A stretch of DNA of 46,824 nucleotides from Actinomycetes bacterium (lineage in GTDB: Bacteria > Actinomycetota > Acidimicrobiia > Acidimicrobiales > Bog-793), in the NCBI GenBank assembly GCA_021803215.1, contig JAJZLV010000102.1:1-46824 (forward strand), in the 5' to 3' direction. The notes below the pieces were generated by a model. That model worked only from the letters and a program-made list of their open reading frames with translations. It was not told the origin of the DNA and made no database searches. Below are positions 35,686 through 44,815 of the stretch, in pieces (the first letter of the stretch is position 1; each line of letters begins with the position of its first letter). The translations under genes were made by a program, and so were the position numbers.

Positions 35686-36180
35686 TCAGCCGTAGTAGCC
35701 GGAGTGGACGTACAGGCAGGGAACGCCCTCGTCCTCGAACATCTGCAGGTTGACGGGATCGTCCTCGAGCGCCAAACGGAGCTCGAAGCCATAGCTCCGC
35801 AGCGCCTTCACCTCCTTGCGCTTGAAGTCGACCGCCTTCAGATAGTCGCCGCCCGAGCGCATCACGAGCAGGTCGTGGCGAAGCTCGAAGCGCTCGAGCC
35901 ACTCCCGGGTCGTCTCTTTTATGGAGGCAGGCCGGGCTGTCAGCAGCACCACCTGGAGCGAGCGATCGAGGAGCTCGAGCAGGCGGGCCACCTCCGGGAT
36001 GAGCGGGTCGCCCCCGGCCGCCTCGAAGAAGGCGTCCCAGTCCCTTCGCAAGCCCGCCAGGTGGTGCTGGCGGCCCGAGGCGTCGGAGAGCACCCCGTCG
36101 AGGTCGAAGACGACGGCCGGGCCGGGCGCGACCGGCCCGGCCGGCCAGTGCCAGTGGAGGGGTGAGCCGGTCGGGCTCAC
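35686..36180 (-). CDS. HAD-superfamily phosphatase (polynucleotide 3'-phosphatase-like motif)
   Basis: VVFDLDGVLSDASGRQHHLAG (motif I DLDGV), VVLLTARPASIKETTREWLERF (motif II), ALEDDPVNLQMFEDEGV (motif III). Confidence 0.82.
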   Translation of the reverse strand: MSPTGSPLHWHWPAGPVAPGPAVVFDLDGVLSDASGRQHHLAGLRRDWDAFFEAAGGDPLIPEVARLLELLDRSLQVVLLTARPASIKETTREWLERFELRHDLLVMRSGGDYLKAVDFKRKEVKALRSYGFELRLALEDDPVNLQMFEDEGVPCLYVHSGYYG

Positions 36181-36785
36181 CCCTCACCCGGCTGGAAGGC
36201 CGACCGTCTGCGCAGCTCTCCTACGACGCCCGGGCCCGCCAGGGTCGTCGTGTCGCCGAGGTCTCGACCCTCGGCGACGTCGCGAAGCAGGCGGCCCGCT
36301 CTCTTGCCCGAGCGGGTCTTCGGGAGGTCTTCTGTGAAGATGGCCGTCTCCGGCCGGGTGATCGGGCCGATGCGGGCGGCCCCGTGCTCGCGCCGCGCCT
36401 CGCCGTGGGCGGCGTCGGCCGCCACGCCCGAGCTCACCGTGAGGTAGGCGACGACCGCCTGGCCGCTCGGGGCGTCCTTGGCACCGTCGCCGGCGGAGCA
36501 GCGAGCGGGAAAGCGGCTCCAGTAGCTCTCCTGGCAGCGCTCGGGGTCGCGGTAGCTCCCCCGCGCCATGGCGGGCCAGGGGCGGGTCACGGTGAGCCGG
36601 CCGCCACCCCGTCCGACCGGCCTTTCGGCGTCGTCCGCCGCCTCGGCTTCGATCCCGGGCAGCGGGAAGGTGGCAGAGCCGGGCTCGAGGGTGACGAGGG
36701 CCCCGCCCTTTATGCGTCCATCGGGGGGAGATCTCCTCTCTTCGGCGAAGAAGTCCGCGATCGCCGCCCTCTCGTCACCAGACAT
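36177..36785 (-). pseudogene. Acetyl-CoA synthetase remnant, N-terminally truncated and internally deleted
   Basis: Retains EPGSATFPLPGIEAE, RPWPAMARGSYRDPERCQESYWSRFP, AGDGAK, GQAVVAYLTV, FTEDLPKTRSGKRAGRLLRDVAEGRDLGDTTTL in order. It lacks the ~400-residue adenylation N-terminus and the segment normally between GDGA and GQA. Confidence 0.8.
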
Positions 36786-36826: not shown

Positions 36827-39817
36827 ATGCCAGCGGTGAGGACGGCCTGTGACGAGGCGACGGTGGCCCTGCCGATCGGCGGGAGAGCGCTCGTCGTGAG
36901 CGACCTGTTCCTGCAAGGCGTCGAGACCCCCGCCTCGAAGAACGCCGTGGCTGCCCTCGTGGCGGCCCTCTCGGCCGTGCCGGCCGACGGCGTGCTCGTC
37001 GTGGCCGGGAACGCCTTCGACCTGCTCGGGGAGAAGCCCGAGCCGTCCGGCGTGGCCGCCGCCCTGGCTGCCCACCCGAGCCTGGCGGCGGCCCTCTCCT
37101 CTTTCACCTCCGAGCCCGGACTTTGCCGCCGGGTGATCTTCCTTCCCGGCCTGAGGGACAGGGCCATCTATCACGACGCCGACGAGGCGGCCTGCCTAGG
37201 TCCTCTCGGAGCCGAGGTGGCGCTGGCGGCCGAGATCACCGTCGAGACCGGCGCCGGACCCCGGCCGGTGCGCGTCGAACCGGGGTGGCGGTACGACTCA
37301 CGCTCGGCCTTCGCCAAACCAGAGGACCCCCACGACACGCCGCTCGCCGAGCACATGCTGACCGAGATCTTCCCGCTCGTCGAGCCGGCCCGGCGGGGCT
37401 GGCTGGCGGGCATCGAGCGGCTGCAGGACCCGGCCGGCCTCCCCCGCTTCATCGCCTCTCGGATCTTCTACCGCATGACGAGCCGCTGGGCCTGGCTGGC
37501 CTTGCTGCCCCTGGCGGCCATAGTCCTGGGACACCTGCCCGGCTTCTGGCTCTACGGCGCGCCGAGCAGGCTCCGGGGCCTCAGCCACCTTTTCATCGAC
37601 ATCGTGGTCACCTTCCTCCTCGAGCTGACAGTCGTGGCCGGGCTGCTCGCCTACGCCAGCCGCTGGCTCTGGCGAGGGGCCGGTCGGGCCCTCCTCGGAC
37701 AGTCGGCCGCGCGGGCGAACGACGCCGCCAGGGAGGCGGCTCGCAGCTACGTGGCCGGCGGCGGGGCCGGCTTCGTGACCGGCCACAGCCTGCAGGCGGA
37801 GATCGGCGACGTCGGCGGAGGCTTCTTCGCCAACACGGGCGCCTCCTCGGAGGTCGTCGAGGAGCGGCCCGGCCTCGTCGGCCTCCCGCCCGTCTTCGCC
37901 CCGAGCACGCAGGTGTCGATGGTGACTGTCGAGGGCGGAGCCGACCTGCACGCCCGGCTCACCCTCTCGAGCGACCCGAGCCCGGCGGCCACCCGCCTCG
38001 AGCGCCTGGCGACGGGACCCCGTCGGAGCCGGCTCGCTCCGAGGGTCGTCGGCTCCTACCCGGGCCAGAGCTGGCCGCCGGTGGCCGACCTGTCCCGCCA
38101 GCGCCGGCTCATCCGGCGGCTCGTCGCCGCCCTCGTCGGGCTCATCGGGATCTTCGACGTGGTCTCAGCCCTCGTGCCCCCCCAGGTGCGGGGGCGCCTC
38201 CACCCCTATCTCGGCTACGTGCCCCTCGGGGTGAGCGCCGCCGCCGGCACGCTCGTCGCCCTCGCCGGCGTGATGCTCGTCCTGCTCGCCCGGGGGCTTC
38301 GCAAGGGACAGCGCCTCGCCTGGACGATCGCCCTCGTGACGATCGGGTTCACGGCCGTGCTCCACATCGTCCGCGACGGCCAGATCCTCTCGAGCCTCGC
38401 CTCGCTCGTGGTGATGGCGGCTCTCTGGTGGGCACGGGACTCCTTCAAGGCCCGCTACGAGCCCACGGCGGTGCGCACCGCCCTGTTGACCCTTCTCGCC
38501 GGGGCCGTCGCCGTCCCTCTCGTGGCGACGGTCGGGCTCGAGATCGCCGTCCGGGTCGACCGCGACCACAACCCCCATCCCCTTCCCCTCCCGACCGCCT
38601 TCCTGGCGGCCCTCGAGCGCCTGGTCGGCATCGACACCGTCGCCCTGCCACACAAGGTGGCGGTCTTCCTCAACCCGGCCGAGCTGGCCGTCACGATCGC
38701 TCTCGTGGTGATCGCCCTCGTGATCGGCTTTCGCCCGGTGGCCGCCCGGCGCCTGGCGGCCAGGAGCACGAGCGAGGCGGCCCCGGCCGAGCGGGCCCGC
38801 GAGATCGTCGCCCGGCGGGGGGCCGGCACGCTCGACTACTTCGCCTTGAGGAGCGACAAGCAGTACTTCTTCGACCGGGACGGGCTCGTCGCCTATGCCG
38901 TCCGCAACGGCATCGCCCTCGTCTCTCCCGACCCGATCTGCCCGCCCGAGGAGAGGAGCTCGCTCTGGACCGCCTTCAGGTCGTTCGCCGACTCCCAGGG
39001 TTGGGCCGTGGCCGTCCTCGGGGCCGGCGAGGAGTGGCTCGCGGTCTACCAGGCGACCGGGATGCGGGAGCTCTACATAGGAGACGAGGCAGTCGTCGAC
39101 GTGGCCGCCCTGGACCTCTCGGGCGGCCAGAAGAAGGGCCTCCGCCAGGCCGTGAACCGGATCGCCCGCTACGGCTACACGATCTCGTTCCACGACCCGG
39201 CCGAGGTCGAGCCCGAGCTGGCGGAGGAGCTGGCCGCTCTGATGCGAAAGAGCCGCCGGGGCGGCGTCGAACGGGGCTTTTCCATGACGCTCGGGCGCAT
39301 CTTCGACCCGGCCGACAAGGGGCTCCTCCTGGCGGTCGCCCACGCGCCGGGAGACAAGGGGCCGGTCGCCTTCTGCCAGTTCGTCCCGGCGCCCGGGGTC
39401 GGCGGCTACTCGCTCGACCTCATGCGTCGCGACCCGGACGACCACCCGAACGGCCTCTCGGACTTCGTGCTGGTGAAGACCATGGAGCACCTGGCCGATG
39501 AGGGCTACCAGGGACTCGGGCTCAACTTCGCCATGATGCGGGCGGTCATGGCGGGCGAGGCAGGCGACGGAATCGCCACCCGCCTGGAGCGCTTCGTGCT
39601 GAAAAGGATCTCCGACTCGATGCAGATCGAGTCCCTCTGGCGCTTCAATGCCAAGTTCGATCCCCGCTGGCTGCCCCGCTTCGTCGTCTGGGACTCGGCC
39701 GAGCAGTCGCTGGCGGCCGCCCTCGCCATAGCCCGGGCCGAGAGCATCTGGGAGCTGCCCGTCATCGGGCGCTTCCTCGTCCCGGCCGAGCCCGAGCCGC
39801 CTGTGCGCCAGGCCTGA
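36827..39817 (+). CDS. Fusion: degenerate metallophosphoesterase (LpxH-like) plus polytopic membrane region plus MprF/LysX-like DUF2156 phosphatidylglycerol lysyltransferase domain
   Basis: N-term VVSDLFLQG/VVAGNAFDLLG/FLPGLRDRAI; TM segments; C-term DYFALRSDKQYFFDRDGLVAYAVRNGIALVSPDPICP...GLSDFVLVKTMEHLADEGYQGLGLNFAMM (DUF2156). Confidence 0.82.
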   Translation: MPAVRTACDEATVALPIGGRALVVSDLFLQGVETPASKNAVAALVAALSAVPADGVLVVAGNAFDLLGEKPEPSGVAAALAAHPSLAAALSSFTSEPGLCRRVIFLPGLRDRAIYHDADEAACLGPLGAEVALAAEITVETGAGPRPVRVEPGWRYDSRSAFAKPEDPHDTPLAEHMLTEIFPLVEPARRGWLAGIERLQDPAGLPRFIASRIFYRMTSRWAWLALLPLAAIVLGHLPGFWLYGAPSRLRGLSHLFIDIVVTFLLELTVVAGLLAYASRWLWRGAGRALLGQSAARANDAAREAARSYVAGGGAGFVTGHSLQAEIGDVGGGFFANTGASSEVVEERPGLVGLPPVFAPSTQVSMVTVEGGADLHARLTLSSDPSPAATRLERLATGPRRSRLAPRVVGSYPGQSWPPVADLSRQRRLIRRLVAALVGLIGIFDVVSALVPPQVRGRLHPYLGYVPLGVSAAAGTLVALAGVMLVLLARGLRKGQRLAWTIALVTIGFTAVLHIVRDGQILSSLASLVVMAALWWARDSFKARYEPTAVRTALLTLLAGAVAVPLVATVGLEIAVRVDRDHNPHPLPLPTAFLAALERLVGIDTVALPHKVAVFLNPAELAVTIALVVIALVIGFRPVAARRLAARSTSEAAPAERAREIVARRGAGTLDYFALRSDKQYFFDRDGLVAYAVRNGIALVSPDPICPPEERSSLWTAFRSFADSQGWAVAVLGAGEEWLAVYQATGMRELYIGDEAVVDVAALDLSGGQKKGLRQAVNRIARYGYTISFHDPAEVEPELAEELAALMRKSRRGGVERGFSMTLGRIFDPADKGLLLAVAHAPGDKGPVAFCQFVPAPGVGGYSLDLMRRDPDDHPNGLSDFVLVKTMEHLADEGYQGLGLNFAMMRAVMAGEAGDGIATRLERFVLKRISDSMQIESLWRFNAKFDPRWLPRFVVWDSAEQSLAAALAIARAESIWELPVIGRFLVPAEPEPPVRQA

Positions 39818-40625: not shown

Positions 40626-43600
40626 TCATCGGCGCCTTTGCCTGACGAGGCGACGGGCCCTTGCGACCACGAGCACGACCTTGAGCGAGACCGAGCCGGC
40701 GACAGAGCGGTTTCCCTCGTAGAGCGCCTTCAGGGTGTAACGGCCCGGCTTGAGCTCTCGCCTCCCGAGCCGGCAGCTGGCCCTTCCTCTCGAGAGGGTG
40801 CGCAGGCAGAGCCGCCGCCCGGAGAAGAACTTCACGACCACCCTGCCGGTGGCGCCGGGCGGCGTGACGGCGACGTAGAAGTGCTCGGCCCCCTCCTGGC
40901 CGAAGATCACCCGCGGCCTCGAGCGCGAGAGCTTTGCGTGAGAGAGCGCCCGCGGCGTGACGGCATTCGAGCGAGCCGAGGTGGCCCCGGTGCCGGCCGC
41001 TGAGATTGCGGCCACCGTGAAGCTGTAGCTCGTCCCGTTCGTGAGGCCGGTGAACGTCTCGGCGGTGGCCGGGGTCTTGTAGGTCCTCACGATCGGGTTG
41101 CCGGCAGCCGGCTCGGCGGTCACCTGGTAGCCGGTTATGGCCGACCCGCCGGTGTTGCTCGGAGCCGTCCAGCTCACCCTCGCCGAGCGGTGACCGGCCT
41201 TGGCCGACACATGGGTCGGGGCGGCGGCCGGTGCTATCTCGTCGTAGCTGTAGGGGAAGGCCTGCAGCGTGTCGCCGGTGAGCCCGAACTCCGCCTGCGA
41301 CTGGTCGTCGAGGTAGAGGGTGCCCGAATGGACCCCGGGCGGCCCCTGCGGGGTGATCGCGACGGTGATCGTCCCGCTCTGGCCCGGGTTGAGGGTCAGC
41401 CCGCCCGAGAAGCTGCTCGTGAGGCCCACCAGGTCGGACCAGAGGTTGCCGGTGCTCGAGCTGACGCTCGGGTCGAAGGCGTTGGTCGTGACCTCGAAGC
41501 TGGCCGTCACGTTGGTGCTGCCGGCCGGGGCCGAGAAGGGGCCGCACTCGGCCGGCTGCAGGAACCAGAGCCCGTAGGCCGCTCCCGAGCCGGTCGGCTG
41601 GCTGATGTCGAGCGATGCGGTGTCGCTGCTGGCGCAGTTGCTGGTCGCCTCGTAGTCCGGGTCCCCGAGGTAAAGACCGGTGTCGAAGGTGACCGGCAGA
41701 GCCGCGCTGGCGCCGCTCGCCGGCGTGGAGACGAGCCCGGCGCTTATGTTGCTCGTGAAGGGCGGCACCGCGTAGATAAAGCCGTTGTCCTTCGGCAGGG
41801 TCGCCCGGTCGTTGCTGCCGGACAGGTCGGTCACGGCATAGGTCGCCTTCGTCGTGAGCCGCGGGTCGACGAAGTAGGACTCGGGCGAGGTGCCGTTGTT
41901 GGTCACCCTCACCGGGTAGCTCGTCGTCCTCCCCTCGACGAGCGTCGTCGCCGAGCTGGTGGGCAGGCTGGCGCTGTCGTTCACCTGGTTGTAGGTGACC
42001 ACGCCGTCGAAGCGCTGGCTGAGCTCGTCCCCACTGACAGGGTTCTGCCAGAAGAGGCTGAGCGTCCACAGTCCGGCCTGCGGATCGAGGTGGTAGGCGT
42101 TTATCACCGAGTAGCCCGCCCGGTTGACGTCGGTCGACACCACCTGGCCGCTCGGGTTCGTGAGGGTGGCCACCAGCGCGTCCTTCGGGTCGTTGAAGTG
42201 CAGGTAGACGTCGAGGTTCGACTCGCCCGCCGGCACCTCGAACTGGTAGGTGTTCGTCTGGGCCGGGCTGCCGGCCCGCCCGTTCCCGCCTGTGAGCAGG
42301 CCCGAGAAGACGCCGTCGGCCGGCACGAGGGTGCGCACCGTGACCGGGATGTTCGGGCTGTTGGCGCTCGGGCTGCTCGCGTCGACCGCCTGCACGAGCT
42401 GGTTCGTGTCGCCGGCGTACTGCGAGCTCGTGACGCTCATGGTGAAGGTGCCCGAGGAGCCGGCCGGGATCGTGAGCGCCTGGGGCGAGAAGCTCGTCGA
42501 GCTCGGCGTCGTGTACCCGTAGGAGTCAGCCTGCCACTGGACGTTGCCGCTCGTGCCGGTCTGTCCGGGCGTGGTGTCCTGGTCGATGGTGAAAAAGACC
42601 GCCGTCCAGGGGCCCGGAGCCGGGTTGTTCACCTCCACCTGGGCGTAGTCGCCCACCCCCTGCGGGAGGCTGTAGCCGGCCAGGTTGCCGCTCGGGTCGA
42701 ACAGCGAGACGTGCAAAGGAGAGCTCTGGCCCGTGTTCTGGTAGTCGGCCCGGAACACGAGCTGGTTGGCGCCGCTCGAGGGGACCGTGAAGGTCTCGTT
42801 CTGGTAGACCTCCGTCACCCCGCTCCAGATCGTCATCGTCCCGGTGTTGGCCGGGCAGCCGCTCGTGGCGCTCGAGGGCGAGGGCTGCATGCAAAAGCTC
42901 CCGCTCTGGCTGAGAAGCGGCGTCTCGGAGCGGGTGGTCGCCTGCAGCTTGACGCTTTGGCTGGAGCCGCTCGTGTTCTCGATCGTGATCGGGACGGTGC
43001 TGGTGGCTCCGGCCGCCTGGGTGATGTTCACCTGGGGCGCCGAGGTCACCACGAGGCCGGCGCTCGCGCCGGTGGTGCTACCGGGCATCGCCTCGGCCGC
43101 GGACACGGCGGCGCTCACGTCGAGCAGACCGGCACCCTGCTCGACGGCGGTCGCGCCGATGTTCCGGGCCGTGGACATGAGGATCTCCTTCACCATGGCC
43201 GGGCTCGGGTCGGTGCCGCCGTGAGTGGCCGCGTAGGCCTGAATGACGTCGGCGGCCGCTGCCGCGGTGAGGGGAGCCGCCTCGCTCGTCCCCCCGGTGA
43301 GCTGGATCGGCTTGCCGCCGCAGTCGGCGAAGCTCGACGAGGTGCTGCACACGGCCCAGTTCAGGTCGCCCGGGGCGACGAGGTCGACGGTGCGGGCGTT
43401 CAGCTGCGAGTAGCCGCCCGAGGAGAGCGAGGAGATGTTGTTGTCGCTGTAGCCCCCGCTGGCGCCCGGCCAGCCGGCCCCGCCGAAGTCGTTCTGCTCG
43501 TAAGCCCGGAAGGTGGTGCTGGCGCCGACGTCGATGACGTTCGGGTCGGTGGCCGGCGAGCCCTGGGTGCTGCGAAAGCCGCCGTCGCCGGCGCTCACGA

Positions 43601-44693
43601 CCACGGTGACGCCGGCCGCCACCGCGGCGTTGTCGGCCTGCTTGACGAGGTCGGCCGTCGTCTCGGGCATCTCGGTGGCCCCGAAGGACTCGTCGAGCAC
43701 CTTCACCTTCTGGCTGACGGCGTACTGGATCGCCTGCACGAAGGCCGAGTTGGTGGTGGTGTTCGTCTGGGCGAAGACCTTGAGGCCGAGCACGCTGGCG
43801 CCCGGAGCCGCCCCGACGATCTTGATGTAGCAGTCGGGCGAGCTCGGGACGGTGTTGAACTCCGAGTTGAGGTTGTAGACATTGTTGCCCTGGGCCGCGA
43901 TCGAGCTGGCGTCCAAGAAGGCCTCGCCGCCTCCGGTGGGGGCGCTCGGACCGTCGGAGGAGAAGTCCACCTGCTTGACGACCGGGGCGGAGGCCGGCGA
44001 GGCCGGCGAGGCGTAGGCCGGGTTGCGCAGGAAGTCCAGGCTGGAGGTGTCGATGCCGTCGGCCAGATAGGCGACGGTGACGCCGCTCCCGTCGATGGGG
44101 ACGCCGTTCACCGTGGCCGTGCCGTTCGTCTCAGCCACGGCGTTTATGTTGCTGAGCGCCTGGGGGTCGAGCTCTGGCGCCGAGGGGCTGGTCGACGAGC
44201 AGAACGAGGTGGAGGCGCCGCCGGTGCTCTGCGCCAGGCGGGAGCCGCCCAGGGCGCCCAGGCGGGAGCCGCGCGGGGCGACCGATGCCAGGCTCGGGCC
44301 GGTGATGGTGCCGTTCGGCACCACCGCGGAGACGGCCGGATCGTGGCGAAGGGCCGCCACCTGGTCAGCCGAGAGCGAGGCGGCCACGGCGTTCACGAGA
44401 GCAAGCGAGGTGGCGCCCCGCACGCCGGCCGCCTTCAGCGCCGAGACGACCGGCCGCTGCACCGACCGCTCGGCCCGCGCCCTGGCCGGCAGGCTGTGAA
44501 GCGCCCCGAACTGGTCCTTAAAGATGACGATCATCTTCCTTCTCGCCCCGCGGAGCGCCGGCAGCGCCGCACGAGGCGCCGTTGCTCGGGCCACCGGGGC
44601 CGCCATCGCGCTCGCCCCGGGCAGGGCCAGCGTGAGCGCCGCGCACGAGGCGGCGCCTGCCACGAGCAGACGACGAAGCCTTCGAGAGAACAT
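40626..44693 (-). CDS. Secreted subtilase-like peptidase with I9-like propeptide, FnIII and Ig-like C-terminal domains; active-site residues look sedolisin (S53)-like
   Basis: Signal peptide MFSRRLRRLLVAGAASCAALTLALPGASA; propeptide KMIVIFKDQFG...; GEAFLD, SAGDGG, TGGTSEAAPLTA; FnIII APTHVSAKAGHRSARVSWTAPSNTGGSAITGYQVTAEP. Confidence 0.88.
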   Translation of the reverse strand: MFSRRLRRLLVAGAASCAALTLALPGASAMAAPVARATAPRAALPALRGARRKMIVIFKDQFGALHSLPARARAERSVQRPVVSALKAAGVRGATSLALVNAVAASLSADQVAALRHDPAVSAVVPNGTITGPSLASVAPRGSRLGALGGSRLAQSTGGASTSFCSSTSPSAPELDPQALSNINAVAETNGTATVNGVPIDGSGVTVAYLADGIDTSSLDFLRNPAYASPASPASAPVVKQVDFSSDGPSAPTGGGEAFLDASSIAAQGNNVYNLNSEFNTVPSSPDCYIKIVGAAPGASVLGLKVFAQTNTTTNSAFVQAIQYAVSQKVKVLDESFGATEMPETTADLVKQADNAAVAAGVTVVVSAGDGGFRSTQGSPATDPNVIDVGASTTFRAYEQNDFGGAGWPGASGGYSDNNISSLSSGGYSQLNARTVDLVAPGDLNWAVCSTSSSFADCGGKPIQLTGGTSEAAPLTAAAAADVIQAYAATHGGTDPSPAMVKEILMSTARNIGATAVEQGAGLLDVSAAVSAAEAMPGSTTGASAGLVVTSAPQVNITQAAGATSTVPITIENTSGSSQSVKLQATTRSETPLLSQSGSFCMQPSPSSATSGCPANTGTMTIWSGVTEVYQNETFTVPSSGANQLVFRADYQNTGQSSPLHVSLFDPSGNLAGYSLPQGVGDYAQVEVNNPAPGPWTAVFFTIDQDTTPGQTGTSGNVQWQADSYGYTTPSSTSFSPQALTIPAGSSGTFTMSVTSSQYAGDTNQLVQAVDASSPSANSPNIPVTVRTLVPADGVFSGLLTGGNGRAGSPAQTNTYQFEVPAGESNLDVYLHFNDPKDALVATLTNPSGQVVSTDVNRAGYSVINAYHLDPQAGLWTLSLFWQNPVSGDELSQRFDGVVTYNQVNDSASLPTSSATTLVEGRTTSYPVRVTNNGTSPESYFVDPRLTTKATYAVTDLSGSNDRATLPKDNGFIYAVPPFTSNISAGLVSTPASGASAALPVTFDTGLYLGDPDYEATSNCASSDTASLDISQPTGSGAAYGLWFLQPAECGPFSAPAGSTNVTASFEVTTNAFDPSVSSSTGNLWSDLVGLTSSFSGGLTLNPGQSGTITVAITPQGPPGVHSGTLYLDDQSQAEFGLTGDTLQAFPYSYDEIAPAAAPTHVSAKAGHRSARVSWTAPSNTGGSAITGYQVTAEPAAGNPIVRTYKTPATAETFTGLTNGTSYSFTVAAISAAGTGATSARSNAVTPRALSHAKLSRSRPRVIFGQEGAEHFYVAVTPPGATGRVVVKFFSGRRLCLRTLSRGRASCRLGRRELKPGRYTLKALYEGNRSVAGSVSLKVVLVVARARRLVRQRRR

Positions 44694-44767
44694 GCCCCCA
44701 CCTTTGGACAGCAACTGAGCCACCTGGCCCAGGCTCTGTAACCTACCGGCCACGCCCAGCGTTGTCA

Positions 44768-44815
44768 CAGCCCAGCCTTCTCCCAGCCCAGCCGTGTCCC
44801 AGCCCAGCCTTCTCC
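44768..44815 (+). repeat. Three tandem copies of a 16-bp repeat (CAGCCCAGCCTTCTCC and variants)
   Basis: 44768-44783 and 44800-44815 identical; 44784-44799 differs at 2 positions (GTG for TTC). Confidence 0.95.

Follow-up and report, generated by a model that had tools for sequence, protein, structure and literature searches.

The window, a 46,824-nucleotide stretch of an Acidimicrobiia contig, carries a gene (36827–39817, forward strand; 996 aa) that encodes a split pseudo-metallophosphoesterase (MPE), a six-transmembrane block and an LPG_synthase_C (DUF2156) domain within a single open frame, which contains the entire stretch reported here. The explanation favored for the whole is that the protein is a lipid aminoacyltransferase whose N-terminal pseudoenzyme descends from a membrane-hairpin MPE and has a role in lipid handling. 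Confidence in this explanation is somewhat better than even, a compromise between two figures: fold, descent and ligand loss, taken jointly, are very likely right, and the lipid role is proposed more tentatively. An MPE and an MprF-type synthase, each alone, are known kinds of protein. Their fusion, the hairpin inside the fold and the erosion series described below appear to be new as judged from literature searches, which found no paper linking MPE and MprF.

The first part of the MPE core, delimited by the AF2 model and homologues, spans residues 8–200 (36848–37426), with modeled strands at 8–15, 20–24, 55–61, 101–107, 129–141 and 144–151. It contains motif I (VVSDLFLQG, residues 23–31, 36893–36919), in which D26 is kept and the His ligand is replaced by F28, and motif II (VVAGNAFDL, 36998–37024; VVAGNAFDLLG starts at residue 58), in which the bridging Asp has become N62. 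Motif III (FLPGLRDRA, 37139–37165; FLPGLRDRAI starts at residue 105) has L109 for the Asn ligand and R110 at the usual position of the MPE His, and keeps D111; in motif IV (VEPGWRYD, 37274–37297), P152 replaces the His ligand, and canonical relatives read VEHGHxxDP (EHGH). A membrane hairpin follows (helices 202–242 and 249–290; 37430–37696), its hydrophobic cores lying at about residues 222–242 and 255–277 (37490–37657). The second part of the core (residues 299–411, 37721–38059), supported by AF2 and by the Metallophos_2 second half of canonical relatives, bears motif V (VTGHSLQAE, 37775–37801), with H320 and E325 kept and the second His replaced by L322. GFVTGHSLQAEIGDVGGGFFANTGAS begins at residue 315 of the frame. 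All of these features lie on the forward strand. An earlier note on this DNA had quoted motif strings from this region and placed two hydrophobic segments after the N-terminal motifs; every string is indeed in frame in the open reading frame, and both segments are present. Motif IV (VEPGW for HGH) was absent from its list, and because this motif occupies residues 150–154, the hairpin sits exactly between motifs IV and V.

Structural modeling bears out the idea, raised in the same note, of one phosphoesterase fold interrupted by a hairpin. For window residues 1–418, AF2 with 43 sequences gave a pLDDT of 91.1 and a pTM of 0.90, and the strands on either side of the two long helices form a single MPE core. 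The first Foldseek match in the PDB is LpxH–lipid X (5k8k; prob 1.00, E 3e-4, TM 0.56 by target length). This alignment runs over 359 columns for a 237-residue target and must therefore span the hairpin. Further matches are mostly of the MPE fold and include PptH, GpdQ, Pol B-subunits, Rv0805, Mre11 and Vps29. The Foldseek E-values are modest and the superposed RMSDs high, as is to be expected of an alignment broken up by a long insertion, and the case for the fold rests on the agreement of AF2 model, Pfam and motif order.

Sequence profiles contribute through relatives of the window protein. Pfam returned no match in the first 408 residues of the window protein, NCBIfam and PDB sequence searches with its N-terminus gave nothing significant, and a PDB profile search with canonical relatives yielded no convincing match. 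The assignment accordingly relies on the structural model, its Foldseek matches and what Pfam finds in relatives. PF00149 (Metallophos) matches before the hairpin in a fused relative (L103, 1e-7) and a stand-alone one (L060, 2e-7), both above the cut-off, and in L096 and L060 the part behind the hairpin matches profile positions 93–142 of Metallophos_2 (PF12850). These three proteins exceed the PF00149/PF12850 cut-off and align end to end with the window protein. The LpxH-like motif order pointed out earlier is kept in most of about 80 relatives, the canonical ones passing the Pfam Metallophos cut-off; a chance resemblance is rejected, given the conserved family and the confident model. By modeled fold and by descent, the window N-terminus can be placed in the calcineurin-like metallophosphoesterase superfamily.

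LpxH, a UDP-2,3-diacylglucosamine pyrophosphohydrolase and the best Foldseek match, shares with the window protein a calcineurin-like core that is interrupted after the motif IV His and before the motif V GHxH; in LpxH this insertion deals with lipid. The LpxH cap, which occupies the same interval as the hairpin, binds acyl chains (PMC6286764). The cap is a soluble helical lid, whereas the window insertion is a transmembrane hairpin; by analogy, the hairpin may be a membrane version of the LpxH cap. Unlike catalytic LpxH, which has seven ligands and the sequence GNRD, the window copy retains two of seven, at about 10% identity to LpxH. Membership in the LpxH family was rejected: the NCBIfam LpxH model scores only 20.3 and 15.7 bits in canonical relatives against a cut-off of 134, and it gives no match to the window protein. 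Chlamydial LpxG, another MPE, is likewise linked to the membrane and carries an insertion at a comparable position (PMC6286764), but its transmembrane helix is N-terminal and outside the fold, and the enzyme is catalytically active and unfused.

Comparison across relatives reveals a graded loss of the metal site. A search of 60 genomes found the N-terminal region in 19, counting that of the window, down to 34–40% identity. A scan of named genomes with full-length alignment kept the best 80 of 437 relatives, and almost all of these 80 carry titles of Acidimicrobiia or Actinomycetota MAGs. Seven metal ligands (D, H, D, N, H, H, H) were assigned after LpxH (PMC6286764), the non-ligand His of GNHD not being among them. 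The window copy keeps only D26 and H320 and has lost the other five (H to F28, D to N62, N to L109, H to P152, H to L322), in agreement with the loss of metal ligands suggested at the outset; by its sequence it lacks the full set that defines a catalytic MPE. Aligned homologues, proposed earlier as a check, show motifs ranging from intact to degenerate. All seven ligands occur in fused copies L125, L103 and GL064, and scanning the whole phylum with a canonical profile added further intact fused copies (L153, L154) as well as stand-alone proteins of about 450–500 aa in other lineages. Below these, L096 has 6/7, L086 and GL069 have 4/7, many have 3/7 or 2/7, and about half of the fused proteins scored retain one ligand or none.

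The stand-alone relatives are uniformly intact: all 22 copies examined keep the seven ligands, although they represent a few lineages rather than 22 independent events. Together with the intact fused copies they show that canonical ligands did occur in this family, and neither of the two outcomes named in the note as refuting its reading was obtained. One of them (L017/L060) has the textbook motifs DLH, GDCFE, PGNHD, EHGH and GHTHxPE. Their neighborhoods contain no conserved gene family, and no LPG synthase gene adjoins them. In intact stand-alone copies as in fused ones, the hairpin is located between motifs IV and V, so it is an old family feature, and its reading as a mark of degeneration was rejected. 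In a few fused members (among them L123, L139, L143 and L145), parts of the first MPE half, the region of motifs I–III, are missing or unalignable, while the second half remains, motif V included.

The six-transmembrane block (residues 422–634, 38090–38728, forward strand), defined by PF16995 (431–568), the MprF model and AF2, resembles MprF subdomain 2 and the LysX membrane region. It is followed by the double-GNAT aminoacyl-lipid synthase domain (residues 659–954, 38801–39688, forward strand), where PF09924 (LPG_synthase_C) matches at 4.6e-67 over model positions 2–297 of 298 and the structural matches are A-PGS, L-PGS and MprF (4v34, 4v36 and 9goe). A full-length AF2 model (pLDDT 84.4, pTM 0.78) aligns with MprF structures over about 560–580 columns, with a TM of 0.86 by target length for L-PGS 4v36. 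The synthase core is nearly invariant among 37 members, for example in SLDLMRR, HPNG and ERGFSMTL. On this evidence, the domain is best read as an intact aminoacyl-lipid transferase, predicted to be tRNA-dependent; a literature search for catalytic residues of the alanyl-PG synthase gave nothing useful.

Two known architectures come close to this module. MprF, a lysyl/alanyl-PG synthase-flippase, has the same subdomain 2 block and C-terminal double-GNAT synthase, yet it also has an N-terminal flippase half, whose place the hairpin MPE takes here. The MprF model NF033480 matches only from position 319 of 841 (score 228.9, cut-off 600), so the flippase half (positions 1–318) is missing, and with it the flippase domain of a bifunctional MprF. 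LysX of mycobacteria and corynebacteria is an actinobacterial MprF homologue with a short transmembrane block (PF16995 similarity) and a synthase. Unlike LysX, which carries a C-terminal lysyl-tRNA synthetase, the window frame stops after the synthase domain (PRK02983 match 13–575 of 1102) and has the N-terminal MPE. The loop charges fit two plus six membrane passes with the MPE core and the synthase both in the cytoplasm; MprF likewise has a cytoplasmic synthase (PMC8131360), and inverted topologies exist in LysX2 (PMC8974105). Given the even pass number and the positive flanks, the MPE and synthase domains would both face the cytoplasm. The same genome holds a second LPG_synthase_C gene (G000:C28:3802–4710, L002), with an 810-aa frame and a membrane region and without an MPE.

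A synthase-domain tree places the window protein in a clade of nine (support 98), whose N-terminally complete members share the replacements H to F, D to N, H to P and H to L (DF.N.P.HL). Intact rows lie nearest the root, with the outgroup so distant that the root and the order of losses are unsure. Because all 22 stand-alone copies and five fused relatives keep the seven ligands, the family probably started from a hairpin MPE with an intact site, and ligands were lost after fusion to a flippase-less, MprF-type membrane and synthase module. Median dN/dS over 24 pairs of eroded copies is 0.25 for the first MPE part, 0.16 for the hairpin, 0.13 for the second MPE part and 0.08 for the synthase, and intact pairs give 0.14–0.36 for the first MPE part; with dS near saturation in many pairs, these values are rough. 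By these estimates, the MPE domain is under relaxed constraint relative to the synthase, yet not neutral.

Among possible functions, the one preferred, although at slightly less than even confidence, is that the pseudo-MPE would bind or gate the acceptor lipid. The ancestral MPE, working at the inner leaflet, would have hydrolyzed a lipid phosphate; the lipid, perhaps diacylglycerol or phosphatidylglycerol, would then have gone to the synthase domain to be aminoacylated. The window copy would since have given up catalysis but kept its hairpin and core, which would either bind, gate or position the acceptor lipid or keep the synthase membrane-bound, as a substitute for the absent flippase half. 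Diacylglycerol is aminoacylated by actinobacterial LysX and by a related synthase (PMC10580965), so it is plausible that an ancestral lipid phosphoesterase supplied the aminoacyltransferase fused to it. A more specific version remains doubtful: in a bifunctional Actinomycetota enzyme, the acceptor lipid (e.g. diacylglycerol) would be made by a phosphoesterase that has a transmembrane lid and be aminoacylated by the fused tRNA-dependent transferase, and the window lineage would have lost the first of these activities and kept the eroded domain as a lipid-binding or gating module.

The main rival, considered unlikely, is a pure scaffold in which the pseudo-MPE and hairpin bind no lipid and only anchor, dimerize or position the synthase. 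The MPE fold occurs without a working catalytic site in the B-subunits of DNA polymerases delta and epsilon, in Vps29 and in GAP50, and inactive MPE folds serve as scaffold in the polymerase B-subunits or Vps29. All of these proteins are among the Foldseek matches, although none has a fold split by a transmembrane hairpin or a fusion to a lipid enzyme. The missing flippase half and the tighter constraint on the hairpin and second half than on the motif-bearing first half also favor a scaffold. Against the lipid-binding reading, the most eroded fused copies have lost first-half parts, so the pocket cannot be essential, at least there. Against a scaffold, nonrandom site residues suggest a kept pocket, several of them maybe structural: across 81 rows, G61 is present in 75, D111 in 70 and E325 in 71, and the bridging metal-ligand Asp at column 62 is Asn in 49, strikingly uniform for an eroded site.

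Further from the preferred lipid-binding role, a neutral relic, with the MPE part as functionless, decaying cargo, is very improbable. The graded ligand loss and the disappearance of whole first-half stretches in members such as those named above would fit decay, but frames stay open through the domain, and for almost every eroded pair dN/dS falls far short of 1, much as it does for intact pairs; values mostly at 0.25 or lower argue against neutrality. That the domain is still a hydrolase with a rearranged or single-metal site (D26, N62, D111, H320) is barely credible. The window clade does keep D26, D111 and H320, and LpxH itself normally has Arg for the GNHD His (PMC6286764), but the loss of five of seven ligands touches both metal sites, and in LpxH a single ligand-to-Ala change costs 3–5 orders of magnitude (PMC6286764).

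The family offers a natural series from an intact to an almost fully eroded domain within one fused protein family, which allows a direct test of why an enzyme domain is retained once it is dead. It also comprises MPEs whose fold encloses a membrane hairpin at the position of the LpxH cap and gives MprF-type aminoacyl-lipid synthases a new partner in the poorly cultured Acidimicrobiia, where the substrate of intact members could reveal the lipid that these bacteria aminoacylate.

The surroundings of the gene show further features. Divergent to it, a 202-aa frame (36177–36785, reverse strand) is an acetyl-CoA synthetase remnant: its residues 1–32 correspond to positions 27–58 and its residues 30–75 to positions 463–508 of the long frame found at the same place in a sister genome (G001, L005), relative to which about 400 codons are missing. 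Downstream, adjoining a methyltransferase gene, lies a gene for a 1380-aa subtilisin-like S8 protease with a fibronectin III domain (40626–44768, reverse strand).
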